From Lachnospiraceae bacterium (GTDB lineage: Bacteria; Bacillota; Clostridia; Lachnospirales; Lachnospiraceae), in assembly GCA_017450065.1 (NCBI GenBank), contig JAFSYI010000003.1, forward strand, positions 1-40,149: 40,149 bases of DNA, in the 5' to 3' direction. Below, piece by piece: positions 1 to 13,984 of this stretch (its first letter is position 1; each line of letters opens with the position of its first letter). Below the pieces are notes generated by a model, which saw only the letters and a list, made by a program, of their open reading frames with translations, was not told where the DNA came from and ran no database searches. The position numbers and the translations under genes were made by a program.

Positions 1-140
1 CACTCCCACAATCCTACCCACCATTCGCAATTCCGTGGTGCTAAGCCCCACTTCTTGCTCATGTTGGGGCGGGTCATAAATCCTTGTCCCCACCATCAAG
101 CAAGCTTGTGGTGTTGACAGGCTTTTGACCCTTTAATCAT
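1..140 (-). other. Structured leader or partial small ORF running off the left edge
   Basis: Read leftwards from the divergent promoter at 141-208, this stretch contains a stem-loop (roughly 90-120, arms containing CACCA and TGGTG with an inner CAAG/CTTG pair) and a GCCCCA/TGGGGC pair around 45-70. An ATG whose first base is 76 follows AAGGATTT and opens a frame of at least 25 codons, beginning MTRPNMSKKW and rich in Trp, that stays open to base 1. I do not recognise the product. It could be a real small gene, or part of a dispersed structured repeat, because its promoter-proximal end carries a copy of the GGGTCAAAA repeat. The window cut prevents a decision. Confidence 0.3.
121..140 (-). repeat. 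Dispersed repeat family B, copy 1
   Basis: On the minus strand this reads ATGATTAAAGGGTCAAAAGC, close to the copies at 17118-17139 and 17526-17547 (ATGATTTAGGGGTCAAAACT). It lies just downstream of the -10 box of the leftward promoter, so it would span the transcription start. Confidence 0.5.
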
Positions 141-208
141 ATTATATGCTATGTGACATAGTGAGACTATATTCTGTGCATATTCGGTCGTTTTTCGTGT
201 CTATTCGG
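141..208 (-). promoter_or_regulatory. Leftward promoter with tandem CCGAATA operator
   Basis: On the minus strand, CCGAATA at 208-202 and CCGAATA at 187-181 are direct repeats 21 bp apart. A perfect TATAAT lies at 146-141, 34 bp after the second repeat. The layout is the same as at the peptide promoter (253-320) and the exporter operon promoter (13684-13750). It forms part of an 18-bp inverted repeat (177-194 with 267-284), so the two promoters here diverge. The target to the left is outside the window. Confidence 0.6.
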
Positions 209-252
209 CAAATCATTACACAATCAATTAAACCGGCATAGTCAGAACAATA

Positions 253-320
253 CCAAATAAACATCCAAAACGACCGAATATGCATAATCACTGATTTTTA
301 TAAAATATCTAACGTATAAT
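253..320 (+). promoter_or_regulatory. Promoter of the double-glycine peptide genes with tandem operator
   Basis: CCAAATA at 253-259 and CCGAATA at 274-280 are direct repeats with 21-bp periodicity (two helical turns). A TATAAT box is at 315-320, 34 bp after the second repeat. No good -35 hexamer is visible at the expected place (about 292-297), as expected if an activator bound to the repeats replaces it. The same arrangement precedes the exporter operon, so the peptides and their exporter are probably co-regulated. Confidence 0.65.
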
Positions 321-361
321 AAGACAAACAGCACAAATCCAAATACAAAGGAGGAAAAAAG

Positions 362-637
362 ATGGTTGACAACAGGAATATGGAACTTAATGACGATGTA
401 ATGGTAAAAGCAGCGGGCGGAACCGGAGAATTTCCCAATTACGATATGATAGGATTTGTTGCAGACAAGCTTCCGACAGAGCAATATGCAAATCATTACA
501 ATGTCAAGGGCGACAACGACGAGATATTCATCTGCTGGTATGCAGGCGACAATATCCTTGCCTCAGGAACCAAGGTATATATGTTCCACATTGAACAGGA
601 TAACGGTTGGAAGATCGAACCGGTAACCTTAATATAA
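362..637 (+). CDS. Double-glycine leader secreted mini-protein 1 (NHLM-type export substrate)
   Basis: A 91-residue protein. Its first 20 residues form a leader with the pattern MELNDDVM-x-x-A-x-GG, matching the class cut after GG by C39 peptidases. The remaining ~71 residues are not a typical short bacteriocin core: they are hydrophilic, rich in Trp/Tyr/Phe/Asp, contain one Cys (so no lanthionine or disulfide pair) and look like a small beta-rich folded domain. The start follows a strong AGGAGG site eight bases upstream. The gene is 71 bp before a second gene with nearly the same leader, and the cognate exporter genes are at 7866-12806 facing it. Export and leader removal are inferred from leader and context. 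The function of the mature protein (toxin, signal, adhesion factor) is unknown. Confidence 0.8.
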   Translation: MVDNRNMELNDDVMVKAAGGTGEFPNYDMIGFVADKLPTEQYANHYNVKGDNDEIFICWYAGDNILASGTKVYMFHIEQDNGWKIEPVTLI

Positions 638-708
638 CCTTATCCCTGATCTCATGATTAACCCTTAAGAATCATTCAACCAATTCAACAAAGGAGGAAG
701 AATTTATT

Positions 709-966
709 ATGGCAGATATGAAAAATGTAGAATTAAACGACGCAGCAATGTCTGATGCATCCGGTGGTATGGCAGGTCTCCCCGGTCCTAAATATGATAT
801 AGGACAACAGATCCGGTTCAACTTCATAGGTGATGATACAACCATCACTCCAACCACGGCCGTAGTAGATGATAGAAAGCACGAAGCAAAGGAGTGGCAC
901 TATCTTCTCCGCTTCGAAGTAAACCAGACTGTATATGAGCGTTGGTATCCCGAATCCGTTATCTGA
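709..966 (+). CDS. Double-glycine leader secreted mini-protein 2 (NHLM-type export substrate)
   Basis: An 85-residue protein whose leader (NVELNDAAM-x-x-A-SGG) matches that of the upstream gene at most positions, including ELND, Met14, Ala17 and GG at 19-20. The predicted mature part of 65 residues has no Cys. Its spacing of hydrophobic and aromatic residues (YDIGQQIRF, EWHYLLRFEV, ERWYPESVI) resembles an SH3-like or Tudor-like beta barrel; this is inference from pattern only. The core differs strongly from protein 1 while the leader is conserved, as expected for two cargos of one exporter. The ribosome site AGGAGG lies ten bases before the ATG. A strong hairpin at 982-1008 ends the transcription unit. 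No modifying enzyme is nearby, so the product is probably unmodified. Confidence 0.8.
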   Translation: MADMKNVELNDAAMSDASGGMAGLPGPKYDIGQQIRFNFIGDDTTITPTTAVVDDRKHEAKEWHYLLRFEVNQTVYERWYPESVI

Positions 967-981
967 TGCTTTCAACATCAT

Positions 982-1008
982 GGGGACGTATCCGGCAGAT
1001 ACGTCCCC
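982..1008 (+). terminator. Terminator of the mini-protein genes
   Basis: A perfect 11-bp stem GGGGACGTATC/GATACGTCCCC with a 5-base loop, followed by TTTACTATT. It lies 15 bp after the stop of the second mini-protein gene and between two convergent units. The T-tract is short, so it may be only partly efficient. Confidence 0.7.
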
Positions 1009-1167
1009 TTTACTATTCCATCTTTATTCTCACATGTTATTGTCCCTGTTTCCTAAGGATCTTTTACAAAATAAATTTACATTTTGACTTGTCCTTCTGC
1101 TTATCTGCTTCATCATAAAACCTTAACAGGAATGAATGCGGAAACAGTCTGTAGGTTTACATAACGT

Positions 1168-3627
1168 TTATGCGGTGTCACGTATGATATACTGCACTTC
1201 ATGCTTTGAAAGGTATTTCTGAGCTTTCTCTTCATCCTTAACAAATACTCCCTTGAACTTATCTCCTAACAGCGTCTTAACCTCATTAAGCTTCTCAGTC
1301 GATCCGCTCACAACCAGTACCACCGGACGTTCTCCGGGTGTTTCTTCGGATATCCTGTTATCGGAGGAAGCACCACCCGACCGGTCTGCCAAACCCGGAT
1401 CCGCAGTATCACGCCCCACTGTATCCTCACCCACAAACCGGCTCTTATCTATGTACTTCATCAGGGCTTCTTCAAGATCCCTGTACATGATGGGCTTGCT
1501 AAGATAATCCGTGAAGCCCTCCTCTATATACATATCCCGCGCTCCCACTATGGCATCTGCGGTAAGGGCTATTATAGGAGTATCATCCGCAAGATGGCGT
1601 CTCCGTATCTCCTCAAGCGTCTGCGTTCCCGACATTACAGGCATCATCTGGTCAAGCAGCACCACATCATACTTACCCTCTGAAAGACAGGTTAAGCATT
1701 CCGCTCCCGACAATGCCGTGGTTATCTGTATCCTTGTATCTGACAGCAGATTGGAAATAACCTCCAGGTTCATTTCGTTATCATCAACAATGAGTATCTT
1801 CGCACCCGGAGCAACAAGAGCAGGTCTGTATTCCTCCTTTGCTGCCTGAGCCCTTTCAAGATTAAGTGCAAAATCGCCCACAGGAGTATCATCTTCGATA
1901 CCCTGTGCCATTTCTGCAGTAAAGGTGGTTCCTTCACCGTACTTGGAGCTTACCGATATGCTTCCGTCCATCATCTTGACGAGCCTCATGGTAATGTTAA
2001 GGCCAAGACCGGTACCCTCAATGTTTCTGTTCTTGTCCTCCTCCAGCCGCTGAAAAGCATTAAACAGCTTACCCAGATCCTCATTCTTTATACCGATACC
2101 TGTATCGGTAACCTCGAACCGCAGTCTGCTCTCCTCTCTGTCAAAGGAAACATTGATACTTACACTGCCTTCTTTTGTATACTTGATCGCATTATTGATA
2201 AGATTGAGCATTATCTGCCGTATCCTTATCTCGTCACCGCGCAGTACGGACGGGATATCCTCAGCAACCTTAAGATTATACTGAAGTCCCTTCTCATATG
2301 CCTTGTTACGTGTCATATTAACAACATCGTTCATCACCGACGAGAATCCGTAACGAACAGGTATAAGTTCCATCTTTCCCGATTCTATCTTGCTAAGATC
2401 CAGGATATCATTGATTATGGAAAGAAGGGTCCTGCCGGCGCTCTGGATATCCAGAGCATATTTCCTGATACGTTCATCACCGGAAGACCTCAGTATCATT
2501 TCATCCATACCTATGATCGCATTCATAGGGGTTCTGATCTCATGGGACATATTGGCGAGGAAATCACTCTTCGCCTTATTGGAAGCATCCGCGGCATCCT
2601 TCTCAAGCTCCAGCACCTTTCTTTCATACGCCGCCTTCTGCTCCTCAAGCTTCATTTCCTCCATGCTCCTGGCATAATTCTGCTCATTCTTATGTCCGGT
2701 ATAATAAAACACGGTTATCATGATGAAGATCAGAGTACAGATAATTATGTTAACCACCAACTGACTTTTCACTTCTTCATACAGCTCGTGATCACCGACC
2801 ACCATTACCACATACCAGTCGTTCATTATCCCGTTAACAAACACTGTGCTCTTCTCACCATCGCACATATATGAGAAGCTGCCCAACCCGGTTGCTTTAA
2901 TGGCATTCAGGTATTCCACGCCTCCCTCCATATCGCTTATATTCGTTCCCTTCAGGGACTCATTGCCGTGTGCTATGAACAGTCCCGTGCTGTCAACAAC
3001 AAAGCCGTAACCCTTACCGTTAATGACAAGTTCGGGCATCATCGACTGGATTCCCTTAAGCTGTACATCCAGTGATATTACATTCTGCCTGTCCGGAAGC
3101 ATCCTGCTGACAGATACGATCATATTTCCTGTCTGGGCATCTATATACGGAGGCACGAACACAACCTCACCGTCATTCTGCCTGGCTATCGTATACCAGT
3201 CGCGGCTCTTCGGATCATACCCTTCCGGAGGCTCCCAGTTAAGCCCGTCCATATATCTGCTCATAATAAATCCGTATAACCCGGTGTAATTCTCATCGAA
3301 CTGCTCTGCCACATTGTTAGTCTCCTCCACGAGAAATTCGTGGATCCTGGCCGGTGTGGATCCACTTATCAGCATATGGTGTACCGAGTCAGCCGTAACG
3401 TGAAGCACATTTTCCGCAGTATTCAGATGGTTCTCGATCATGGAGGATATATTCAATATCCTGTCCTCTATAACAGCATTGGAATTCGACACCGCAACAG
3501 AGTAGATCAGCCTCGATGTGTAGACAACCATGACTACCATAAATACAAACAGCAGTATTAACGGTATCAGCATTCTGTGATTTTTATGAACATATTCACT
3601 GTGATTTCTCTCGTCTGTTGAAATCAT
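1168..3627 (-). CDS. Hybrid sensor histidine kinase (dCache-HisKA-HATPase-REC)
   Basis: An 819-residue membrane sensor. A transmembrane segment (about 19-42) and a second (about 290-311) bracket an extracytoplasmic double-Cache-like domain containing a typical DPKSRDWY motif. A coiled linker leads to HisKA with phospho-acceptor His362 (SHEIRTPMNA), HATPase with N-box (NLINNA, 475-480), G1 box DTGIGI (508-513) and GTGLGL (538-543), and a receiver with Asp659. The last ~55 residues (from 766) look like the first half of another receiver but lack its Asp. It is the last gene of the exporter operon, 71 bp after the DUF3798 lipoprotein gene, which may feed it a ligand. The phosphate probably passes from the internal receiver to the Hpt protein at 5158-5769. 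No output regulator with DNA-binding domain is encoded in the operon. Confidence 0.9.
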   Translation of the reverse strand: MISTDERNHSEYVHKNHRMLIPLILLFVFMVVMVVYTSRLIYSVAVSNSNAVIEDRILNISSMIENHLNTAENVLHVTADSVHHMLISGSTPARIHEFLVEETNNVAEQFDENYTGLYGFIMSRYMDGLNWEPPEGYDPKSRDWYTIARQNDGEVVFVPPYIDAQTGNMIVSVSRMLPDRQNVISLDVQLKGIQSMMPELVINGKGYGFVVDSTGLFIAHGNESLKGTNISDMEGGVEYLNAIKATGLGSFSYMCDGEKSTVFVNGIMNDWYVVMVVGDHELYEEVKSQLVVNIIICTLIFIMITVFYYTGHKNEQNYARSMEEMKLEEQKAAYERKVLELEKDAADASNKAKSDFLANMSHEIRTPMNAIIGMDEMILRSSGDERIRKYALDIQSAGRTLLSIINDILDLSKIESGKMELIPVRYGFSSVMNDVVNMTRNKAYEKGLQYNLKVAEDIPSVLRGDEIRIRQIMLNLINNAIKYTKEGSVSINVSFDREESRLRFEVTDTGIGIKNEDLGKLFNAFQRLEEDKNRNIEGTGLGLNITMRLVKMMDGSISVSSKYGEGTTFTAEMAQGIEDDTPVGDFALNLERAQAAKEEYRPALVAPGAKILIVDDNEMNLEVISNLLSDTRIQITTALSGAECLTCLSEGKYDVVLLDQMMPVMSGTQTLEEIRRRHLADDTPIIALTADAIVGARDMYIEEGFTDYLSKPIMYRDLEEALMKYIDKSRFVGEDTVGRDTADPGLADRSGGASSDNRISEETPGERPVVLVVSGSTEKLNEVKTLLGDKFKGVFVKDEEKAQKYLSKHEVQYIIRDTA

Positions 3628-3684
3628 TTAATCCTCTTTCATGTTTATGATCCTGTTAATCAATGGTTTTTACGTAATCCGGGT

Positions 3685-3701
3685 ATTTGACCCTTTAATC
3701 A
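3685..3701 (-). repeat. Dispersed repeat family B, copy 2, overlapping a stop codon
   Basis: The minus strand reads TGATTAAAGGGTCAAAT. Its first three bases are the TGA stop of the DUF3798 lipoprotein gene (3699-3701). It resembles copies at 121-140, 17118-17139 and 17526-17547. Confidence 0.4.
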
Positions 3702-5075
3702 CTTTATTGTAAAGTACTGTTCCGGAACCTTAACCTTGGTAGCGCCCATATAATGACCGGGATCGCCGAAGATATAGGTATCCTGATATATGAGGATGGT
3801 TTTATCCGATCTCTCACCCGTCTGCGCATCTGCATAGGCGGAACCGTTCCATTCCGCTCCCGGTGAGAACACTCCGTATGCCTTGGTAAGGTCATTTATA
3901 TCCGTAAGCTTACTCTCTCCCATGAGCACATTCCTTGCATGTTCTGCCAGTCCTGCCGAAACAGTATAACCATAGGAATATGTCCAAGTTCCGAACCTGC
4001 CTGCACCGCCCTTCTTTACGATCGCATCCTCAACCTTCTTAAGGATCTTGTCAAAATCTCCCGCTTCTCCGGTAAGATCAAGGTCAAGCGCTCCGGGATA
4101 ACCCATGAGCGGCGACGGAAGATCCGCTTCGATAAAATAGCCTCCATATTCAAGAAGCTGCCTGATCAGCGGTTCAGTATGGGCATCATTGGTACAGAAA
4201 TAGGCTGATTTCTGTCCGTATTTTTCCACCCATTCTGGCACCTTTTCCATGATGTATGCCTGAGCACCGGGAACTCCGACATCGGTCGTCGGATCAGGTG
4301 CTTCCTCCATTTCGAATTTCATGCCGAACTCCTCACATGCGGCTTTCATAATGTTAACTTCTCTGTATACAGATTCATACGAGAGATGGCGTGGGAACGA
4401 TATATGCACAAACGTATCACATCCGAGTTCATGCGCCGAACGTATGATAAGATATCCCCGGCTCAGGAAATCATAATTGACAACAAGATCTGCAGTCTTC
4501 TCAATATCGGCGAAATCCTCATATGCCTCACCTGCTATACATAAGATGTCCGGCCTTTTTTCATGTATCTGTCTGAAAGCCTCCGTTGTCCCGTCTATTG
4601 CCTGATTAACAATAACCGCTTTCATGTCCGGGTCATCTGCAAGGTTAACAATAGTCTGTATTGTCGTGTCCAGCTCCTCGGTGAAATTATCCGGATAAAT
4701 TACCAGTGTTACAGCATCCATTCCGTACTTTTTCTGGAATGCCTCCGCTCCGCGCCTGTCATCCTCAGACTGTGCAAATGAACCGGTGACTATACCGATG
4801 TGGAATGAATCTCCATCCTTATCTGTGCCCTGCTTACCACCGCTGTCCACCGCTCCTTCTGTCCCGCTTTCAGATGCTTCACCGCCGCTTTCTCCCAATC
4901 CCTGAGCCGTACTTTCTTCCGCCACGGCATTACCGGTACGGCCTGTCTTTCCCTGAGCCGGCACATTATCAGCCTTGCCGCAGGCCGACATTACAACAGT
5001 CATGGCTCCGGCCAATAAAACACTCACCAGTCTCATCCTCTTGGTCTTCCTCATCATCCTTATCATTTCCTCCAT
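3699..5075 (-). CDS. DUF3798-family substrate-binding lipoprotein
   Basis: A 458-residue lipoprotein: a basic N-terminus and hydrophobic segment end in the lipobox VMSAC, followed by a low-complexity Ser/Gly/Glu-rich linker (about 35-85) and a periplasmic-binding-protein-like fold beginning FHIGIVTGSFAQSEDD. The sequence matches my knowledge of the DUF3798 family, whose ligand is not known to me. It stands between the Hpt gene (82 bp upstream) and the hybrid kinase gene (71 bp downstream) with no ABC importer, so a sensory role, presenting a ligand to the Cache domain of the kinase, is more likely than uptake. The start is uncertain: three in-frame ATGs lie within the first 20 bases and a GGAGG overlaps the first, so translation may begin at 5066 or 5057. 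The stop codon overlaps a dispersed repeat. Confidence 0.8.
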   Translation of the reverse strand: MEEMIRMMRKTKRMRLVSVLLAGAMTVVMSACGKADNVPAQGKTGRTGNAVAEESTAQGLGESGGEASESGTEGAVDSGGKQGTDKDGDSFHIGIVTGSFAQSEDDRRGAEAFQKKYGMDAVTLVIYPDNFTEELDTTIQTIVNLADDPDMKAVIVNQAIDGTTEAFRQIHEKRPDILCIAGEAYEDFADIEKTADLVVNYDFLSRGYLIIRSAHELGCDTFVHISFPRHLSYESVYREVNIMKAACEEFGMKFEMEEAPDPTTDVGVPGAQAYIMEKVPEWVEKYGQKSAYFCTNDAHTEPLIRQLLEYGGYFIEADLPSPLMGYPGALDLDLTGEAGDFDKILKKVEDAIVKKGGAGRFGTWTYSYGYTVSAGLAEHARNVLMGESKLTDINDLTKAYGVFSPGAEWNGSAYADAQTGERSDKTILIYQDTYIFGDPGHYMGATKVKVPEQYFTIK

Positions 5076-5157
5076 GTCCCATCTGATTTAATATAGCGTT
5101 CGCAAAATATCCGGACTTATTCGACGAATGCTTTCCCGAGTGTGCATATCTGTTATA

Positions 5158-5769
5158 TCAGTCTTCTATCTGGCTTACTACCCTGCGTATCTTAAGCAGG
5201 GCTTCATTATATTCGTATTCCGCAAGATCCTCTCTCGCATTCTTAAGCACATTTATAAGCGTATACCTGAACGGATAGCGCATAAGCTTATCTATAAGCT
5301 TTACAGCCTTCTCATCATCATAATCCTCAACAGCCTCAATAAGTGCATCTCCGGTCTCAGCCGCCTCCTTTGCAGACAGTTCACTTGCCGGATGAACCTC
5401 CTCCAATTGACCGTATGGTCTAAGGGCACTCACCACCTCATCAAACAGTCTCAGTATCTCTGCCTTATAAGAAAGCATCCTGTCATATTCATTCAGCCTG
5501 CCGTGCAGCTCCATCGTCTCTGCTGTCTGCGCCAGTCTGTCAGCGCCTATCATTCGTGCGTTGCTCTTGAGGGCATGTACCGTTGCAGTCAGTTCCTCAC
5601 AGTCCTGCTCATCTAAGATTCCGCTTAATACCGCCCTGGTATTATCAGACCTCCTTAAGAACCTCTGCAGTGCCGCTATGTATTTCTCACTGTTTCCGGT
5701 ATATGTAATACCCTCATCGACATTGAAGCCCGAAAGCCTGAGATCGTTAAAATCATTTGTATTACCCAA
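5158..5769 (-). CDS. Histidine phosphotransfer (Hpt) protein
   Basis: A 203-residue soluble protein. Residues about 13-110 form an Hpt domain: an N-terminal segment with the usual GxxYTGNSEKYxxALxxF pattern, then the phospho-acceptor motif VHALKSNARMIGA with His65. The C-terminal ~90 residues are predicted helical and probably a second four-helix unit. Translation starts at TTG, supported by a very good AGGAGGGG site seven bases upstream, and overlaps the end of the SpoIIE-type gene by eight bases. It is the natural intermediate for the hybrid kinase at 1168-3627. The downstream response regulator is not in this operon, so the relay must leave the cluster or end on an unseen LytTR-type regulator (inference). 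Confidence 0.85.
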   Translation of the reverse strand: MGNTNDFNDLRLSGFNVDEGITYTGNSEKYIAALQRFLRRSDNTRAVLSGILDEQDCEELTATVHALKSNARMIGADRLAQTAETMELHGRLNEYDRMLSYKAEILRLFDEVVSALRPYGQLEEVHPASELSAKEAAETGDALIEAVEDYDDEKAVKLIDKLMRYPFRYTLINVLKNAREDLAEYEYNEALLKIRRVVSQIED

Positions 5770-7873
5770 CCTGCTCCCCCTCCTGTTCTTTGCGGAATTT
5801 CTTTATCAGAATAAGATTATTACATCCCTCTTTGCGTTCGTATTTCATTTCATCCATTATATTTTTGGCCATGAAGATCCCCATACCGCCGGGACCCCGT
5901 TCCTTCCGCGGAAGAGTTATATCCGGATCCTCCTTAGCTGTCGGATCATAGGGAATACCTTCATCTGTAAGCTCTATACGGATCGTTTCCTCATCCGGTG
6001 CTTCCACCCTTACACATATCTGTCCCTGGGTATCGGGATAGGCATACCCGGCGACATTCACAAACAGCTCCTCCACCGCCAACGCCACCCTTCCTGCCTG
6101 CCGTGCAGTATGACCTGCGTTTATTATATTCTCCCTGACAAATGCAACTACTTCCCTTGTATTCTCCACATCTGCATTAAGTATAAGCCCGGGATATCCC
6201 CTATAGGTAAACGCAAGCATCGTAATATCATCGAACTGATCCACATCCTTTGAATACCTCATGACCGAATCAAGTATATTCTCTGTCAGCTCCGCCGGAG
6301 ACTCCCCTATATGCTCATTCATAACGGAAACAAGCCTGTCAAGGCCGTAAGCATCGCCGTCATAATTCTGTGCATCCGGCACACCGTCCGTATACACAAA
6401 CACTGTATCGCCACACCTCATTGTTATCCTTGTGTCAGTATAATTTATGCCTCTCTTAAGTCCCATGACCAGTCCGTGACGGTCCTTATATACCACGAAC
6501 TTATGCTCATCATCCATGAACACCGGATACTCATGTCCGGCATTGGAGAATACTATTTCGCCCGTTTTCGTATCGACTATTCCGAGCCAGGCTGTTACAA
6601 ACATCTTCGTGTCGTTCCCTGCGCGCAGCTGCTCGTTTACATCATGCAGTATCTCCGACGGCAGCCCGCCCTGCATCGCCCGGTTCTTAATAACGGTCTT
6701 CGCTATTACCATGAACAGCGCTGCAGGAATACCTTTGCCCGTTACATCAGCTATGACCAGACATAGATGCCTGTTATCAACGAAGAAATAATCGTAGAAA
6801 TCACCCGCCACGAATCTTGCGGGCGTCATGGACGCATAAATATCGAATTCCTTCCTGTCGGGAAATGCCGGAAAAACAGACGGAAGAATATCCTTCTGTA
6901 TCCTGTTTGCAATACTGAGCTCCGAACGTTCCCTCTCAGACTCTCTGGCTGCACTTACCAGCTCTCTTGCCGTCCTGTCGATATATTCCTCCATATTGTA
7001 GATCGACCTTGCCAGATACTCTATTTCATCACCTGTCTTAATCTTAAGCAGCTTATCCGACATAATGAATCCCGCATGTCCCTCGGAATGAGTATTGACC
7101 GTGAAAGCTTCCGCTTCTTTTGCCATGGTCTCAACAGGACGTACTATCCGTTTCAGGAACCAGAACATGTACACGGCCATCAGCACGGCTATTATTATAC
7201 CTATAATGCCAAGCGTGTCTCTTACGTGAGCACTGACTACCGCCTCCTGTGTTGCCATCGGTATCTCAACCCCTATTATTGCCACGACTTCGCCTTCGGA
7301 AACGATCGGAAGTATGGCTGTGGTATTGTAACCGTAATCACTCTTTGATACAAAGAAATTCTTCGGCCTGACACCCGTTTCCATGAATTCCGTACAGTCC
7401 TCTATGAACTCCGGATTAACGGGTCCCGCGTCTCCGAGAGTGTATTTGTACTCAGGGACCTCATATACATCAAATATATATATCAGCGGATACCATCCTT
7501 CCTTGGTACCGGCATATTCCTTCAGGATATCCGTTCTTATATAACCGATATAAATATCATTGGCTCCGGTAGCCTCCCGAAGATCAAGCAGTCTCTCTTC
7601 CGTTTCAAGGTAGCGTGCTGACGAGGCAATCCTCTTACATTCCTCTTTATCTATATCCCCTCTGATGAGCTTCGAATACTCCGCGATCTCCTCATCGGGA
7701 ATTATCTTCCTTACCACCTCTGCTATCTGATATCCGTTATCGTTGTAATTCTTACGGACACTGTTCTTGAATTTAAAATATCCGAAGTTAATGCTTATCG
7801 CACTTATCGTAAGTCCCATGAACAGAAAGCCCAGCACGAACTTAATCGATAATGAGAAAAATCCCTTATTCAT
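5762..7873 (-). CDS. Membrane sensor with SpoIIE phosphatase and RsbW-like kinase domains
   Basis: A 703-residue protein. It has a transmembrane helix (about 11-31), an extracytoplasmic sensor region, a second helix (about 220-241), a HAMP-like linker, a PPM/SpoIIE phosphatase domain (about 315-560) with metal motifs GDFYD (357-361), DVTGKG (376-381), YTDG (494-497) and DDIT (548-551), and a C-terminal GHKL kinase domain of RsbW type (about 565-695) with EELFVN, DEGIPYDP and GGMGI. Such proteins act in partner switching by phosphorylating and dephosphorylating a STAS protein; the obvious partner is the STAS gene at the head of this operon. The gene overlaps the upstream exporter gene (ATGAATAA) and the Hpt gene downstream, so all three are translationally coupled. 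Kinase and phosphatase on one membrane-anchored chain suggest one stimulus sets the phosphorylation state of STAS. Confidence 0.9.
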   Translation of the reverse strand: MNKGFFSLSIKFVLGFLFMGLTISAISINFGYFKFKNSVRKNYNDNGYQIAEVVRKIIPDEEIAEYSKLIRGDIDKEECKRIASSARYLETEERLLDLREATGANDIYIGYIRTDILKEYAGTKEGWYPLIYIFDVYEVPEYKYTLGDAGPVNPEFIEDCTEFMETGVRPKNFFVSKSDYGYNTTAILPIVSEGEVVAIIGVEIPMATQEAVVSAHVRDTLGIIGIIIAVLMAVYMFWFLKRIVRPVETMAKEAEAFTVNTHSEGHAGFIMSDKLLKIKTGDEIEYLARSIYNMEEYIDRTARELVSAARESERERSELSIANRIQKDILPSVFPAFPDRKEFDIYASMTPARFVAGDFYDYFFVDNRHLCLVIADVTGKGIPAALFMVIAKTVIKNRAMQGGLPSEILHDVNEQLRAGNDTKMFVTAWLGIVDTKTGEIVFSNAGHEYPVFMDDEHKFVVYKDRHGLVMGLKRGINYTDTRITMRCGDTVFVYTDGVPDAQNYDGDAYGLDRLVSVMNEHIGESPAELTENILDSVMRYSKDVDQFDDITMLAFTYRGYPGLILNADVENTREVVAFVRENIINAGHTARQAGRVALAVEELFVNVAGYAYPDTQGQICVRVEAPDEETIRIELTDEGIPYDPTAKEDPDITLPRKERGPGGMGIFMAKNIMDEMKYERKEGCNNLILIKKFRKEQEGEQVG

Positions 7874-10052
7874 GATCTACCTGCTGCCTCTTTACAAGAT
7901 CACAGAAATACCCTTTAAGCTTCATCAAATCATCATAGGTCCCGTCTTCCACAATATGTCCGTTATCAAGTACCAATATACGATCGCACTGCCTTATGGT
8001 AGACAGCCTGTGCGCTATTACTATTCTCGTGCATTTCATCTCATCCAGCGCCTCTGACACCTTACGCTGCGTAATGTTGTCAAGAGCCGATGTCGCCTCA
8101 TCAAAGATAAGAAGCCTTGGCTTAGGCGCTACCGCTCTCGCTATCATAAGCCTCTGCTTCTGTCCGCCGGATATTCCTCCGCCTCCCTCGGATATCAAGG
8201 TATTCATACCCATTGGCATATTGTGTATGTCCTCATCTATACCGGCTATCCTTGCCGCCTCCCATGCATCATTAATTGTCAGCCATGGGGCGGCAACGAC
8301 AATATTTGAATAAATATCACCGGCAAACAGCCTTCCGTTCTGTGTAACCACGCCTATATGCTTTCTTAAGGATTTAAGGTCGACCTTGTTTATATCCCGT
8401 CCGTCATAATAGATACCTCCCCTTACGGGCTTTTCGAATCCGAGAAGCAGCCTTACAAGGGTTGACTTACCGCACCCCGTCCTTCCTACTATGGCAACAT
8501 ACTGGCCGGGCTTTATCTTAAGGGAAATATCATCGAGTATCATGGGCGAAGTCTCGTCATATTTAAAGGACAGTCCGTTAATCTCGATACCGCCCGCCAC
8601 ATTGGCAAGCACTTCCTTGTCTGCCGATATTTCGGGTGCGGTCTTAAGAAGCGGTCTTGCCATCTCAAATACGGGACGTATGTCGGCAGCTGTCAGAGCC
8701 ATTCCGATAAGCGACATAAAAGCGCCCGAAACCATACCATACGCAGTATTGAAGGCATAGTATCCGGCAACACTTACATGAGAAACTATTGCGGCATTAT
8801 ACATAACTATCGTTCCGACAATAGTTATAGTCAGACCGAATACACCGTTAAGCTTAATGAACAGAGGCGGATCATATGCAAGCCTTGCTTCCTCTGCATA
8901 CAGGTCTCCCCATCTTGAGAATGCGCGCATTTCCGAGCCTGTAAGCTTAATCTTCTGAATACCGCTTATCATTGCATAACTCATGCCGTTCTCCCTGCTC
9001 GCAAGTACCATCTGCTTCTTCGACAGCTTCATCTGGATAAGGGATGATACCACCGAAAACAGCACTGTTATAATGATTATCATCAGCGCCGGTACTACAA
9101 GAGCGGGCGCATATTCAAATATCTGTGTTATGTAAACCAAAGAGAATAATGAAGTAAGTCCGGTATTAAGTATGACCGAAACCAGCGTAGAGCACAGTGA
9201 ATTCACATACGAGGCTCTTGAAGCAAGCTCTCCCGATCCGTAATCCTTAAAAAAAGATGCCGGAAGTGACAGTATCCTCATCATTGTTGCGGCTTCAACA
9301 CAAAGGCTCATCCGCGTATCTATCCTTGCCGATATGAGAGCTTTCGCCGATCCGAGAAGCAGTCCTCCAACCGACGCGCACAGCATGAATATACCCGTTG
9401 AAACAAGAAGCGAAATACTTCCTTCACTGACTACGCTTCCAAACAGGAAGTAATTGAGCTTAGGCGTAAGAAGTCCTGCAAGCATCACAAGAAGCGATAC
9501 AAGCATTACCATCACATAATCCGCAGGCTCCAGGATCGAGATAATGTATTTTATAAGGTCCGTAACCGTAAGCTCCTTTAACGGAAAGGGTCTGTAGAAG
9601 GAGAACGCATCCCGTTCAAAAAGTGCTTCATTGTCCCTTTTAACCCTAATATAACCACCTGTGCCGGGATCATAGAACCTGTATCCGGTAAGGCCTGCCG
9701 GAAGAAGGACCACAGGTCTCTTATCCTCCTTAAGGAAGCCGAGCATGACGCCGAAAGCATCCCTGCGCCATCCCTCCTTAAGCTCCACCTCCCTCTTCAT
9801 TATCCCGTAAGGATGCAGCACATGATCAAGCCTCTCTTCCATCGTCTTAAGCTTTGCCGGAATCTCTCCAGGCTGAAGACGGTAAGCTTTCAGTATCTCG
9901 TTTATGACACTGTCACCCTGCTCCTTTTCATCTGAGAACGCCTCCGCCTTCCTACGGCCGGTAACTGCACCCGCAATGTTCATAAGCGTATTCTCATAGC
10001 CGTCATGATCATTCTTTTTTCTTAATTTAATCTGATCGTCAAACCAACCCAT
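7866..10052 (-). CDS. NHLM-type ABC exporter, ATP-binding/permease subunit
   Basis: A 728-residue ABC half-transporter. Residues 1-160 are a cytoplasmic N-terminal region without C39 peptidase, as in the second transporter of NHLM (nitrile hydratase leader microcin) systems. A six-helix ABC membrane domain (about 170-450) follows, then an ATPase domain with Walker A GRTGCGKSTL, signature ISGGQKQR and Walker B LLIFDEATSALD. It probably pairs with the C39-containing half-transporter encoded just upstream to export the GG-leader mini-proteins. The N-terminal region is shorter than in many family members, which often carry an extra ligand-binding domain. The gene follows its partner after 92 bp and overlaps the SpoIIE-type gene by eight bases. 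Confidence 0.9.
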   Translation of the reverse strand: MGWFDDQIKLRKKNDHDGYENTLMNIAGAVTGRRKAEAFSDEKEQGDSVINEILKAYRLQPGEIPAKLKTMEERLDHVLHPYGIMKREVELKEGWRRDAFGVMLGFLKEDKRPVVLLPAGLTGYRFYDPGTGGYIRVKRDNEALFERDAFSFYRPFPLKELTVTDLIKYIISILEPADYVMVMLVSLLVMLAGLLTPKLNYFLFGSVVSEGSISLLVSTGIFMLCASVGGLLLGSAKALISARIDTRMSLCVEAATMMRILSLPASFFKDYGSGELASRASYVNSLCSTLVSVILNTGLTSLFSLVYITQIFEYAPALVVPALMIIIITVLFSVVSSLIQMKLSKKQMVLASRENGMSYAMISGIQKIKLTGSEMRAFSRWGDLYAEEARLAYDPPLFIKLNGVFGLTITIVGTIVMYNAAIVSHVSVAGYYAFNTAYGMVSGAFMSLIGMALTAADIRPVFEMARPLLKTAPEISADKEVLANVAGGIEINGLSFKYDETSPMILDDISLKIKPGQYVAIVGRTGCGKSTLVRLLLGFEKPVRGGIYYDGRDINKVDLKSLRKHIGVVTQNGRLFAGDIYSNIVVAAPWLTINDAWEAARIAGIDEDIHNMPMGMNTLISEGGGGISGGQKQRLMIARAVAPKPRLLIFDEATSALDNITQRKVSEALDEMKCTRIVIAHRLSTIRQCDRILVLDNGHIVEDGTYDDLMKLKGYFCDLVKRQQVDHE

Positions 10053-10144
10053 ACTCTACCCATGCCGATCTACCGGACCATATCTTTATCCGGACATCCG
10101 TACCGGTAATTCAAAATTATGCAGATGCTCATATGCTGCAGTAT

Positions 10145-12328
10145 TTACTCACTGAGAACCAGTTCCCTGTAGTATCCGTCCTTCTTATACAGTTCCTCAT
10201 GACGTCCGCGCTCGACAACCTCTCCGTGTTTAAGAACGATTATTTCATCACAGTCACGTATCGTACTTAGCCTGTGAGCGATAACGATACAGGTTATCCC
10301 CCTGTCTCTTATCGCATTTACCACCTCGAATTCAGTCCTGGCATCAAGCGCTGAAGTCGCCTCGTCAAGGATAACGATCGTCGGATCCTGCGCAAGAACT
10401 CTTGCTATCTCCATTCTCTGTCTCTGGCCTCCGGAGAAATCATTTCCGCCCTCGATCATCTTATGATCGTAACCCTTTTCTCTCCGGATAATGTCTTCAT
10501 GTATCTGAGCATCCTTGGCCGCCATTATCATTTCAAAATCCTTGATGCTCTTATCCCACATCCTGATATTTGATGAGATCGTATCCTCGAACATTATTAT
10601 GTCCTGATCCACGACTGCAAGAGAGCCGGTAAAAACGCTCCTGTCTATGTCTCCGATCGGCAGTCCGTCAAACAGGATCTCTCCTTCCCACGGACGGTAA
10701 AGTCCTGAAAGGAGCTTTGACAGAGTTGATTTACCGCATCCGCTCTCACCAACAAAGGCCACTCTGCTTCCCGGAGTAAGCTTCAGAGAAAAATTCTTAA
10801 TAAGCGGTTCATCCAGTCTTGAGTAACCGAAGGTCACGCCTTTCATTTCCACGTTCCCTTTAAGCTTTTTATAGCTGACACCTTCCTCATGTACCTTAAG
10901 TGCGCTGTTTTCATCGGCAGGGTATTCCATGACATCCTCGATGCGTTCCATATCAGTCCTAAGCTCCTGAAGCATCTGACCTGATGAGATAAAGCTGTTG
11001 GCAGGTGCCGTAAACGAACCAAGGAAGCCCTGAAACGCTGTTATCATGCCAAGCGTAAATCGACCCTTCATAGTCAGATATACACCTATCATAAGCACGA
11101 GTGTATTAGTGATAGCGGACACAATCCCCGGTATATTTCCAAGATACTGTTCCAGCTTAAGGAACCGTACTTTGGCTGTATTGACACCTGCCTGATAACC
11201 TGCCCATTTACGGAAATATCCTTCCTCCGCTCCCGATGCCTTTATGGTCTCTATCATTTCTATCCCTGCTGTTGTACAGCTGCTTAACTTACCCGAATCA
11301 CGAAGCTTCACCCGTGAAAGGTTGATCCTCTTCTTTGATATGATGCCTGCGGTGAACATATTTATCACAACAGATGATATTCCCACCAGTGTCAGTATGA
11401 CGCTGTTCTTAAGCATCACTGCAAGGTAAAACACCATCATAAAGGCATTGAGCACAAGCGGCGCCAGAGTGTAGATAAGCGAATGTGCTATACCTGCATT
11501 CCCTGCCCTTCGGCTTAAGATATCTCCCGCATATCTCTGCGAGAAGAAATCCATCGGAAGATTAAGAACCTTCCACATATATGAAGTGCTTCCGTACACT
11601 GACATCCTTCCGTCTATGCGGCGTGAATATACAGCCTGGATAAACGCGGTTATTATCTTGATGAATCCAAAAATCGACAGACAGATAATAAACGGCATAT
11701 ACCACGACGGATCCATGCCTGTAAGCAGTCTGTCCATGAATATCCTTGAAAAGACCGGGTCGATGATACCCGTAAGAGATGAAATGATATTGGTCACAAC
11801 AACAAAGGCGATCGCAATCCCGCAGCCCTTAAGCCTTGCTCTTGCAAAATCAGCAGTTGATCTTCTCTTCCCGTCTGCCGTAAATGTCTCCGACGGTGAG
11901 AACATCATGCAAAGACCCGTGAATTTCTCATCAAATTCCTGCATGCTGACAGAATAAGTTCCCCTTGCGGGATCATTTATCCATACCCTGTCCTTCTTAA
12001 ATCCGTTTACAACAACGAAATGATTGAACTCCCAGTGCGCTATGCACGGAAAAGTCCCGTTATCCCTAAGATAATCCGGCTCATACCTGTAGCCCCTGGC
12101 AGTCAGGCCATAGCTCCTTGCTGCGATCAGTATGCTCTTCCCGTTGGAGCCGTCCCTTGAGACACCACAATCACGCCTAACCTGTTCAAGCGGTACCCAT
12201 TTTCCGTAATAGGCAAGCACCATCGCCAGGCAGGCGGCTCCACATTCAAGGGCTTCCAGCTGCATGATAAAAGGAACCTTTGCAACACCCTTTTGCACCG
12301 GTTGTATTTTCCTGTCTCTATTTCCCAT
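10145..12328 (-). CDS. NHLM-type ABC exporter with C39 leader peptidase
   Basis: A 727-residue peptidase-containing ABC transporter. The N-terminal C39 domain has oxyanion Gln23, catalytic Cys29 (in LECGAA), His103 (NHFVVV) and Asp119 (NDPA), so it should be active and cut after the GG of the leaders encoded at 362-966. Then come a six-helix membrane domain (about 160-450) and an ATPase with Walker A GESGCGKSTL, signature FSGGQRQR and Walker B IVILDEATSALD. I chose the ATG at 12328. A TTG at 12337 is also in frame, and neither has a strong ribosome site, since both lie within the end of the adaptor gene; translational coupling is likely. This is the only leader peptidase in the window. Confidence 0.93.
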   Translation of the reverse strand: MGNRDRKIQPVQKGVAKVPFIMQLEALECGAACLAMVLAYYGKWVPLEQVRRDCGVSRDGSNGKSILIAARSYGLTARGYRYEPDYLRDNGTFPCIAHWEFNHFVVVNGFKKDRVWINDPARGTYSVSMQEFDEKFTGLCMMFSPSETFTADGKRRSTADFARARLKGCGIAIAFVVVTNIISSLTGIIDPVFSRIFMDRLLTGMDPSWYMPFIICLSIFGFIKIITAFIQAVYSRRIDGRMSVYGSTSYMWKVLNLPMDFFSQRYAGDILSRRAGNAGIAHSLIYTLAPLVLNAFMMVFYLAVMLKNSVILTLVGISSVVINMFTAGIISKKRINLSRVKLRDSGKLSSCTTAGIEMIETIKASGAEEGYFRKWAGYQAGVNTAKVRFLKLEQYLGNIPGIVSAITNTLVLMIGVYLTMKGRFTLGMITAFQGFLGSFTAPANSFISSGQMLQELRTDMERIEDVMEYPADENSALKVHEEGVSYKKLKGNVEMKGVTFGYSRLDEPLIKNFSLKLTPGSRVAFVGESGCGKSTLSKLLSGLYRPWEGEILFDGLPIGDIDRSVFTGSLAVVDQDIIMFEDTISSNIRMWDKSIKDFEMIMAAKDAQIHEDIIRREKGYDHKMIEGGNDFSGGQRQRMEIARVLAQDPTIVILDEATSALDARTEFEVVNAIRDRGITCIVIAHRLSTIRDCDEIIVLKHGEVVERGRHEELYKKDGYYRELVLSE

Positions 12329-12806
12329 TATTGCCAAACAAGAACGACAACGGACTTATCTCTTCGGTAACAAGCTCCACCTCATAACTCCCGTCTTCGA
12401 ACTCTCCGTCAACGTCTATTTCATACACCCACTCTCCGGGCTGCATATTTCCGATATGCAGCGAATAGCTGTCCGTCGTATCCTCAACGGTCACGGGTTT
12501 GTCGGAATGCAGTGATGCTCTGTATTCACTGCCGTCTATCTTCGCCTTCATTTCATTTCTGAACCTGCTGCCGTATTCCTTCTTCACAAGGCATGTGAGC
12601 CTGCCACCCTTCGATATTCCTACTCCGGGTACGGTTGAATCAATATTCCCAAATGCGCCGAATATGCATGCTCCCGTAAGTATTACCACAATCGCTGCCA
12701 ATACGAACCATATCCCCGGATCGGAGAGCTTCACATAATCGTTAAGCTGATCCGGTGATGATATCCTCTCTATTGACTTATCCCTGAATACGGTCTCGTT
12801 AGCCAT
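12318..12806 (-). CDS. Short NHLM-type secretion adaptor (HlyD-like)
   Basis: A 162-residue protein with the N-terminal signature of NHLM secretion proteins (FRDKSIERISSPDQL), one transmembrane helix (about 32-53) and an extracellular beta-rich remainder. Usual members are HlyD-like membrane fusion proteins of several hundred residues with a long coiled-coil hairpin; this one lacks the hairpin entirely. In a Gram-positive cell a periplasm-spanning arm is not needed, which may explain the reduction. It precedes and overlaps the C39 exporter gene. I am confident of the family link from the N-terminus and context. Whether the short form is functional or a degraded remnant cannot be told, but the frame is intact. 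Confidence 0.75.
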   Translation of the reverse strand: MANETVFRDKSIERISSPDQLNDYVKLSDPGIWFVLAAIVVILTGACIFGAFGNIDSTVPGVGISKGGRLTCLVKKEYGSRFRNEMKAKIDGSEYRASLHSDKPVTVEDTTDSYSLHIGNMQPGEWVYEIDVDGEFEDGSYEVELVTEEISPLSFLFGNNGK

Positions 12807-12880
12807 CTGCTTCCTGTTCCGGGTTACCGCTTTACAACCCTTACTGATCCGAACAGCCTTACTGTTATATGCCGGGCATA

Positions 12881-13297
12881 TTACTTATGTATATATTTAA
12901 GCTGCTCATTGATCTTGCCCACTGTCCTGTTCCAATACCATGATTCGGTCAGCCATATACCCGCATAGATAACTGTCATAATGGCGATCATGACCAGCAT
13001 ATCGCTGATCCTTTCGAACCATCCGAGCAATGTACTTGCAATAACAAAATCCATCATTACAACAACATAATGGATAAATGTAGCTTTAAGCAGTCCCCAG
13101 CTCTCTATCTTATATACTACCGATCCGCCCATTGCAATCATACCGAGCAATGCAGATACAGAAAGATGCAGGATAAGCTCTGCCGAACCCGCTCCCTTAG
13201 CTGCCGTATCGTTCATTACCCAGAAGGCCACTCCGACTATCGTCCCCAATACCAGCCCTGTAAGAGCCTTTGTTATAAACCTGTTCCACAGCTCCAT
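12881..13297 (-). CDS. DUF3021-family four-helix membrane protein
   Basis: A 138-residue protein with four predicted membrane helices and the family-typical middle section (SALLGMIAMGGSVVYKIESW) followed by LLKATFIHY. DUF3021 genes commonly sit beside LytTR-type DNA-binding regulators, and several act as membrane inhibitors of them (LytTR regulatory systems, known to control streptococcal bacteriocins). Here no LytTR gene is adjacent, yet the operon promoter carries direct repeats with the 21-bp spacing typical for LytTR sites. The ATG follows GAGG at a good distance. The gene is 29 bp after the STAS gene. The role as regulator inhibitor is inference. Confidence 0.8.
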   Translation of the reverse strand: MELWNRFITKALTGLVLGTIVGVAFWVMNDTAAKGAGSAELILHLSVSALLGMIAMGGSVVYKIESWGLLKATFIHYVVVMMDFVIASTLLGWFERISDMLVMIAIMTVIYAGIWLTESWYWNRTVGKINEQLKYIHK

Positions 13298-13326
13298 AAT
13301 GCTACCTCATGGTTAACATAAAACAT

Positions 13327-13644
13327 TTACAGAATATTTATCATATCTTTAAAACCGGTCATCACAAAAATCTCATCTACTTCAGGGGTAACATTCCTGA
13401 CCGTCATACTGCCGCCCTTCCCTTCCGTATACTCCTGTGCCCAGTAAAGGACACGGAGTCCTGCAGAGGCAATATAATCAAGACCTTCAAGATCGAAGAA
13501 GATATTGATAACCTCCTCCGGAAGCTCATTCAGCCTCTCATCAAGGTTCATCGCACGCAGAGTATCAAGCTTTCCCCTGATCGCGATATTAAGATCCGCA
13601 CCGTTTATCTCCCACTTTGTATCTATATATTCTTCAGCTCCCAT
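13327..13644 (-). CDS. STAS-domain anti-sigma-factor antagonist
   Basis: A 105-residue single-domain STAS protein of the RsbV/SpoIIAA type. The conserved phosphorylation loop reads DLEGLDYIASAGLRVL with candidate phospho-serine Ser60. It is the first gene of the exporter operon. Its likely modifier is the SpoIIE/RsbW-like sensor encoded at 5762-7873. No separate anti-sigma factor or sigma factor gene is in the window. The upstream ATG at 13671 is rejected because it lies only about six bases after the predicted transcription start and has no spaced ribosome site. The ATG at 13644 follows AAGGA by eight bases. Confidence 0.88.
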   Translation of the reverse strand: MGAEEYIDTKWEINGADLNIAIRGKLDTLRAMNLDERLNELPEEVINIFFDLEGLDYIASAGLRVLYWAQEYTEGKGGSMTVRNVTPEVDEIFVMTGFKDMINIL

Positions 13645-13683
13645 AACAGCATTCCTTTCATATAAGTACATGTCTCCAAATAT

Positions 13684-13750
13684 ATTTTACAGCTTTTGTA
13701 TCGCCTTTATACGCTTTTTGTCTATTCGGTCGTTTTTCATGTCTATTTGG
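13684..13750 (-). promoter_or_regulatory. Promoter of the exporter/signalling operon with tandem operator
   Basis: On the minus strand CCAAATA (13750-13744) and CCGAATA (13729-13723) are direct repeats 21 bp apart, with GACATGAAAAACGA between them. A -10 box TAAAAT preceded by TG lies at 13689-13684, 33 bp after the second repeat. No recognisable -35 is present. The stretch matches the mini-protein promoter at 253-320 over the repeats and much of the spacer (ACAT, AAAACGA). The distal repeat overlaps the end of the repeat element at 13746-13966. Confidence 0.65.
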
Positions 13751-13966
13751 TAACTATTCAGAGCCATGCACATACAAGACGGCACATGCTGGCATGAATG
13801 CCGGCTTGTATGTATATGGCGAAGTAACCACAGGAGCGAGCTTGAGCGTAGCGAAATCAGCATGCGAGCGACGACTGGACACGGCATGTAAATGGCGTGT
13901 CATCACCCGGAGCAAACAAAGTGCGTATGCACGACTTTGCGAATGGGGTTCTGAATAGTTACCAAA
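13746..13966. repeat. 221-bp structured repeat element with 20-bp terminal inverted repeats (family A)
   Basis: The ends are a 20-bp inverted repeat with one mismatch: TTTGGTAACTATTCAGAGCC at the left and GGTTCTGAATAGTTACCAAA at the right. Inside are several stems: GCCATGCACATACAAG paired with CTTGTATGTATATGGC, GACACGGCA with TGGCGTGTC, and CAAAGT with ACTTTG. There is no ORF. It looks like a MITE-like or other non-autonomous mobile element or structured RNA. A lone copy of its terminus is at 15537-15551. Its insertion between the exporter operon and the esterase gene separates their promoters. Confidence 0.65.
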
Positions 13967-13984
13967 ATGAACCGCTTAAAAATC

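Follow-up and report, generated by a model that had tools for sequence, protein, structure and literature searches.

A putative LytTR-type operator shared by an NHLP-type exporter operon and its candidate cargo genes in Lachnospiraceae, and its likeness to LytTR regulatory systems

Introduction

In the accessible text of a 2018 study (PMC6193735), LytTR regulatory systems (LRS) were described as pairs of a LytTR regulator that lacks a receiver domain and a membrane inhibitor; of the five such systems in Streptococcus mutans, four have an inhibitor with DUF3021 or DUF2154. Those systems, which the same text set apart from two-component systems and named as the only ones then characterised, use 9-bp repeats, for the most part separated by 12 bp and found preferentially 10 bp before the -35 element, and display positive autoregulation; binding by one regulator, HdrR, was shown by electrophoretic mobility shift assay. 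Here we describe an operator of similar design that occurs three times in a 40,149-nucleotide stretch of DNA (the 'window': contig JAFSYI010000003.1, positions 1 to 40,149, of assembly GCA_017450065.1) from a Lachnospiraceae bacterium, where it lies ahead of an NHLP-type peptide exporter operon, ahead of two small genes with double-glycine leaders, and facing the left end of the contig.

Compared with the LRS HdrRM and BrsRM as set out in PMC6193735, the system described below has in common a stand-alone LytTR protein that is mostly encoded beside a membrane protein (DUF3021 in this case), 9-bp direct repeats about 12 bp apart and about 33 bp before the -10 box, an operator ahead of the regulator's own gene in most relatives, and export- or bacteriocin-like targets. 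It is unlike them, as far as the accessible text goes, in that an NHLP-type exporter, double-glycine-leader cargo and large secreted proteins also lie behind this operator, and in that receiver, Hpt and hybrid-kinase genes often lie beside the regulator gene. The repeat letters differ as well, being ACCGAATA here and ACCACTTA/ACCGCTTA in that account, while repeats in its Table 3 (for example, ACCACTTAC and ACCGCTTAT) share with those found here (ACCGAATAG) an ACC start and a TA near the end.

Three other groups of proteins invite comparison. The response regulators AgrA, ComE and BlpR possess the same DNA-binding fold and use an operator of the same class immediately ahead of the promoter, whereas the regulator considered here lacks a receiver, and the presence of an AgrA-like protein does not track that of the site. 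BlpS of Streptococcus gallolyticus, according to the accessible text of PMC8545106, is likewise a LytTR-only DNA-binding protein, and acts at bacteriocin promoters via a conserved 30-bp operator; it differs in its length of 108 amino acids, in being encoded with a classical kinase/regulator pair, and in acting as a repressor, whereas here a DUF3021 partner and a site at the regulator's own gene are found. Finally, the exporter resembles NHLP systems (TIGR03794, TIGR03796 and TIGR03797) in its C39-type ABC subunit above the family cut-off and in its small double-glycine cargo; the other ABC subunit scores narrowly below the cut-off of its family, and the exporter is unlike those systems in its short HlyD-like form and in the STAS, SpoIIE/HATPase, Hpt and DUF3021 genes of the same gene run; judged by its genes, we term it NHLP-type and claim no membership of the whole system.

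Operator sites in the window and in related genomes

When the window was scored against CCRAATA-N14-CCGAATA with up to three mismatches allowed, 21 matches were returned, where 100 shuffles gave 6.96 on average (sd 2.81). Three of the 21 were exact (181-208 and 13723-13750 on the minus strand, and 253-280 on the plus strand), and every remaining match carried at least two mismatches. These are the places and strands at which an initial annotation of this DNA had seen one tandem operator serving three promoters, and the -10 spacings that it gave were also recovered (Table 1). Each site consists of two 9-bp direct repeats, ACCRAATAR, with a 21-bp period. As that annotation had further stated, no good -35 element was found at the three sites, the best match to TTGACA there (at a spacer of 16-18 bp) reaching three of six positions.

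The source genome (G000; 3.22 Mb, 88% complete, 100 contigs, with the window as contig C90) contains five exact sites, three in the window and one each on contigs C42 and C24, and none of the backward pattern; the genome-wide scan that had been proposed thus returned these few sites and not the many unrelated matches named in advance as counterevidence. When a longer motif was allowed three mismatches at most, nine sites and no backward control match were obtained. Across 37 genomes of the genus, ACCRAATA-N13-ACCRAATA occurred exactly 44 times, in 23 genomes, again with no backward match, and chance similarity of the sites is ruled out by the absence of the backward pattern from these genomes and the source genome. 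Conservation extends beyond the spacer likeness (AAAACGA) first noticed in the window, across the exact genus sites, into gap letters that the pattern leaves free (RACA and an A-tract) and a CA behind the right repeat. Among 43 of the exact sites, a C stood at one gap position in all 43, the A-tract was kept at 42, 42 and 40, and the two letters of the CA at 40 and 40, these last being positions untouched by any filter; the forty-fourth match (G022:C117), which looks like a chance hit, was removed by a spacer filter that slightly favours this spacer. In the family as a whole the exact pattern was present in 13 of 397 genomes, including the source genome; outside it, 21 matches in 12 genomes stood against 8 in the backward control, the bare pattern at this level is near noise, and only some matches (G348, G392, G148) also share the spacer letters.

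A set of 64 sites was then collected by a tolerant filter over loci mostly fetched for holding a site, together with three further stretches of the source genome, and is accordingly no genome-wide census. A near-consensus -10 box begins 32-35 bases past the right repeat at 52 of these 64, whereas 26 other four-base windows gave a mean of 2.2 and a maximum of 10 (63 sites being long enough). With weaker or TG-extended boxes allowed, the best -10 lay at 33 or 34 in 59 of the 64 (only offsets 32-36 were searched). The best -35 match was one to three of six positions at 48 sites, four at nine and five at seven, where shuffling leads one to expect about eight sites with four and about one with five.

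The genes behind these sites are LytTR itself (20), the receiver protein found beside LytTR (10), small proteins with double-glycine leaders (8), large proteins with a signal-peptide-like start (7), the STAS gene of the exporter operon (4), DUF3021 (3), a HlyD-like exporter gene (2), an ABC ATPase (1), DUF3798 (1), and six others (small membrane proteins, a DUF3592 protein, and a 135-aa protein 311 bp away); at two sites the contig ends before any gene. The four sites that the longer motif adds in the source genome are two on C3, ahead of a double-glycine cargo gene and of an operon containing another, and one each on C27 and C24, ahead of genes for proteins of 1157 and at least 1479 aa, respectively, whose signal-peptide-like starts were judged by eye, the C24 protein being cut by the end of the fetched stretch.

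The candidate regulator

Contig C42 encodes a stand-alone LytTR protein, of 159 aa when counted from its likely ATG and with no receiver domain. Genome comparison marks it as the likely regulator of the three window sites, because its orthologues co-occur with the site and the site often directly precedes its gene. Exact sites were found in 22 of the 24 genus genomes with an orthologue and in 1 of the 13 without (p = 6e-7), and in 19 of those 24 the LytTR gene has a site directly ahead of it, with two more degraded; sister genome G019 retains the LytTR operator with one mismatch. The earlier proposal that a single activator controls cargo and exporter is strongly supported by this comparison, which also supplies that activator's likely identity. 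A fold search returned the LytTR fold, with only residues 46-147 spanned by at least one fifth of the matches; the first 50 residues have a pLDDT of 49-65 in the predicted structure, and the protein has an extra N-terminal region ahead of its LytTR domain.

At the level of sequence, the genus displays the features of an LRS: a LytTR protein without a receiver, an adjoining DUF3021 gene, a 9-bp repeat pair, and an operator at the regulator's own gene. The source genome as assembled lacks two of them, the partner gene beside LytTR and the operator ahead of it, its only DUF3021 gene lying in the exporter operon on another contig.

A wider scan covered 84,980 species genomes and confirmed 215 loci, of which the best 80 were named and are described here. 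By record title 76 are Lachnospiraceae, two are Eubacterium, and the remaining two are Butyrivibrio and Clostridia; rumen metagenomes are the source of many of these genomes. A DUF3021 gene was located no more than 6 kb from LytTR at 77 of the 80 loci and adjoins it (about 600 bp) at 70. A relative of the receiver protein was counted in 55 loci, Hpt in 59 and a relative of the hybrid kinase in 53, most of these matches covering long stretches (54, 56 and 49, respectively, in a recount), and a full-length C39 exporter gene in six, one further partial ABC match not being counted. An LRS-type repeat with a -10 box was detected within 300 bp upstream in 40 of the 80 loci, against 13 of 1351 random windows. 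In G007, L171 and L179 exporter genes lie upstream of LytTR on the same strand, with an Hpt gene between. Alignment A1 leaves out L093, and alignment A2 leaves out L208 and six other loci.

At L133:4027-4518 (G008:C36) there is a second LytTR paralogue (37% identity), with perfect ACCGATCAG repeats of the same geometry upstream; a relative of cargo 1 (70%) lies nearby, with a mirrored ACCGATTA-type site between it and the paralogue. From its sequence this locus is apparently a separate, parallel pair of LRS and cargo.

Weighing the alternatives

That the sites belong to ordinary quorum sensing of the AgrA/PlnC type, governed by an AgrA-like response regulator (receiver plus LytTR) encoded on C34 beside a GHKL kinase gene, is a natural thought, since no more than two LytTR proteins were found in the genome, this being one of them, and direct repeats of such a kind also serve LytTR response regulators (PMC6193735, accessible text). 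Its relatives (P0008, E<=1e-30), however, do not track the sites, exact copies of which occur in 7 of the 13 genomes with a relative and 16 of the 24 without, and no site was found on C34, whereas the stand-alone LytTR gene is so often preceded by one; the presence pattern leads us to reject this candidate, which we consider very improbable. Even less probable is the idea that the sites are pieces of dispersed, MITE-like repeats (resembling miniature inverted-repeat transposable elements) that lie ahead of genes by chance. Two of the three window sites do abut dispersed elements (RF01699 at 1-139 and an element at 13745-13975), but other copies of the latter (on C3, C53, C70, C82 and C95) do not coincide with sites, G019 retains operator A and its -10 box without the RNA element, and the flanks of the genus sites differ, by eye; G019 and the non-coincident copies together contradict this explanation.

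A different role for the C42 protein itself, as a repressor or as modulator of another activator, is suggested by BlpS, which the accessible text of PMC8545106 describes as a LytTR-only protein whose repression comes from competition with BlpR for one operator. The poor -35 elements at most sites, on the other hand, suggest a need for an activator, and the extra N-terminal region and LRS-like DUF3021 partner set the C42 protein apart from BlpS; we regard this role as unlikely, if slightly less so than control by the AgrA-like protein.

Several observations weigh against control by one LytTR activator acting through an LRS. By analogy with BlpS a LytTR-only protein can repress, and the sign of regulation is thus not proven. 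In the source genome the LytTR gene sits on another contig, with its own operator replaced by a repeat element, and G007 and G024 have no operator directly ahead of LytTR. Half of the 80 loci (40) show no detected upstream repeat with a -10 box, 29 of these being below 60% identity and 11 not; among 13 distant LytTR genes, two have weak repeats only and eight have none in the 220 bp read. Lastly, 12 of the 64 sites lack a near-consensus -10 box at the expected offset, and a minority of sites outside the window have a fair -35.

Table 1. Features of the window (positions in nucleotides)
Feature	Position	Strand	Remarks
Clostridiales-1 RNA (RF01699) element	1..139	-	cut by contig end; 86.4 bits; starts 2 nt after the -10 box of operator A
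-10 box of operator A	141..146	-	TATAAT; 34 bp past right repeat; same box in G019 without repeat element
Operator A, left-pointing, LytTR-type direct repeat	181..209	-	GCCGAATAG-12-ACCGAATA
Operator B, ahead of cargo genes	252..280	+	ACCAAATAA-12-ACCGAATA
-10 box of operator B	315..320	+	TATAAT; 34 bp past right repeat
Cargo 1, 91 aa	362..637	+	N-terminal leader ...ELNDDVMVKAAGG; no family found
Cargo 2, 85 aa	709..966	+	leader ...ELNDAAMSDASGG; no family found
Hybrid histidine kinase	1168..3627	-	dCache-HisKA-HATPase-REC
DUF3798 protein	3699..5075	-	
Hpt phosphotransfer protein	5158..5769	-	start codon uncertain
SpoIIE-type phosphatase	5762..7873	-	with HATPase_c_2 (RsbW-like) domain
NHLP-type second ABC subunit	7866..10052	-	TIGR03797, 708.8 bits, cut-off 709.4
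NHLP-type ABC exporter with C39 leader peptidase	10145..12337	-	TIGR03796, 894.2 bits, cut-off 853.3 (passed)
Short protein, 162 aa	12318..12806	-	matches positions 1-51/421 of NHLP HlyD-like secretion protein TIGR03794, 37.6 bits, cut-off 156.2
DUF3021 protein	12881..13297	-	domain of several LRS membrane inhibitors; sole DUF3021 found in assembly
STAS-domain protein, exporter operon gene 1	13327..13644	-	ATG chosen by ribosome-binding-site-like sequence; longer frame from 13671
-10 box of operator C	13684..13689	-	TAAAAT; 33 bp past right repeat
Operator C, ahead of exporter operon	13723..13751	-	ACCAAATAG-12-ACCGAATA

Exporter, cargo and other putative target genes

NHLP-type exporters occur widely in the genus, 30 of the 37 genomes having one above the TIGR03796 cut-off. 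A second exporter of the source genome above that cut-off lies on C53, where no site was found (22 of 73 candidates scored), and the operator therefore marks one of at least two exporters. No full HlyD-like secretion protein was recognised in the window's exporter operon, the 162-aa protein matching only the first 51 of 421 model positions. For cargo 1 and cargo 2, each with a short double-glycine leader, comparison with the Pfam and NCBIfam models gave no match at E<=10 and no known leader family, a limit to be read with the fact that HMMER filters discard most matches above about 0.1. It was also observed that the peptide exporter operon contains parts known from partner switching, in the form of a fusion of a SpoIIE phosphatase to an RsbW-like ATPase (5762-7873) and a STAS protein (13327-13644).

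Elsewhere, a recurring cargo type consists of a double-glycine leader followed by ...EATCPxCG...C..C (L078:2626-2955, L127:5717-6049, L084, L091 and L094), several copies of which sit downstream of an operator; by its sequence it looks like an exported zinc-ribbon mini-protein, and one related cargo type gave a weak zinc-ribbon match (PF23783, E 1.9e-5, 24.7 bits, under the cut-off of 27.3). In the 298-aa product of the operator target adjoining LytTR on C42 (L008:9812-10708), a single receiver domain (182-293) was recognised and no output domain; we read its first half as a second receiver, although Pfam recognises just one, and an Hpt-like gene (22.9 bits, cut-off 24.6) follows it. Operators were also seen ahead of very large secreted-looking proteins (G000:C24:109429, C24:119398 and C27:49204; G007:C96:12598; G005:C53:6048), one with Listeria-Bacteroides repeats and that of G007 having at least 2442 aa, and the regulon may therefore cover a change of the cell surface besides peptide export.

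The left edge of the window and sister genome G019

The third unit that the initial annotation had placed beyond the left edge was found in G019, where the locus is unbroken. It opens with receiver and Hpt genes, LytTR and DUF3021 come next, both reading left, and several double-glycine cargo genes follow; a gene for a PAS/CPBP-protease-like protein, a pair of ABC-2-type permeases and an ABC ATPase behind operator A then lead on to operator B and cargo. Behind the left-pointing site there stands an ABC-2 exporter/cargo unit, and DUF3021 follows at a greater distance. In the source genome the contig breaks within the Clostridiales-1 RNA element, which starts two bases past the -10 box of operator A. 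A search for the 7-kb G019 unit elsewhere in this genome returned only pieces of less than 100 bp (40 of 83 candidates scored), which in an assembly of this completeness does not prove absence.

Contig C42 ends in the same RF01699 element, there at the LytTR -10 box and with LytTR's own operator gone, and its last 95 bases equal the first 95 of the window. Those bases also end C46 and are contained in C82, C69 and C10, and the join of C42 to C90 is thus not proven, because the shared bases lie in a repeat common to several contigs; the gene order of G019 favours it. The 7-kb unit was either lost between two copies of the element, in which case operator A would be the promoter site ahead of LytTR, or is missing from the assembly. 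Derivation of the -10 box of operator A from the repeat is ruled out by the presence of the same box in G019 without the element.

The RNA element has 22 matches in its own genome, itself included, several of them partial and several at contig ends; among them are C42:12030-12150, C10:160-324, the end of C46 and the starts of C69 and C82. It has inverted ends (ATGATT..AG.GGTCAAAA) and the look of a MITE, and the Clostridiales-1 RNA family may, at least here, be a mobile-element-like repeat. The second dispersed element (13745-13975), which abuts the exporter operator, has inverted ends (GGTAACTATTCAGA ... TCTGAATAGTTACC), five other partial matches in the genome, and a borderline GA-cis RNA match (RF02987, 13829-13911, 34.8 bits, cut-off 34.7).

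Discussion

The three window sites are very probably operators of one LRS, in which the C42 LytTR protein would act as the activator and would switch the regulon as one set. The sites, their geometry, the neighbouring genes, the co-occurrence and the LytTR fold come from sequence and modelling, and from these we infer binding, activation, inhibition by DUF3021 and cargo export; for activation, as opposed to binding, the argument is drawn from the geometry and by analogy from the LRS literature. The LytTR activator would bind the two ACCRAATAR repeats, which share one helix face at a distance of 21 bp, and would bring RNA polymerase to promoters that for the most part have no good -35 and whose -10 box follows some 33-35 bp downstream. 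Its own gene and module, DUF3021, the receiver and Hpt proteins, the NHLP-type exporter operon, the double-glycine cargo and the large secreted proteins would then be switched on together. By analogy with HdrRM and BrsRM, DUF3021 probably holds LytTR inactive until a signal arrives, after which self-activation would make the response switch-like.

The operator and its regulator are of a known kind, with a set of target genes that appears to be new, the novelty lying in the link of an LRS to an NHLP-type exporter and to a recurrent cassette of Hpt, receiver and hybrid-kinase genes. A regulon joining an NHLP-type exporter, cargo and surface proteins with such a cassette was not found in the open-access literature searched (most subscription papers lying outside this scope), where there was likewise no paper that joined any two of LytTR, NHLM, NHLP and DUF3798, or that combined NHLP, bacteriocin and Lachnospiraceae.

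More tentatively, and at somewhat less than even chances, the system may be an LRS gated by a phosphorelay, in which hybrid kinases, Hpt proteins and the output-less receiver would release LytTR from DUF3021, perhaps together with the STAS/SpoIIE-RsbW-like pair. If so, the cell would enter an all-or-none 'export state', with exporter, cargo, surface proteins and sensing machinery turned on together. In the genomes compared here, parts of a multistep phosphorelay are found again and again beside an LRS, which is also linked to an NHLP-type exporter. Culture work may be possible, because relatives of the locus occur in strain-named records without a metagenome-assembled-genome label (XBB2008, AD3010 and AB2028, among the 80 loci). 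For the mostly uncultured Lachnospiraceae of the rumen, a short DNA signature predicts which secreted proteins, exporters and signalling genes would be switched together, and names their likely regulator.

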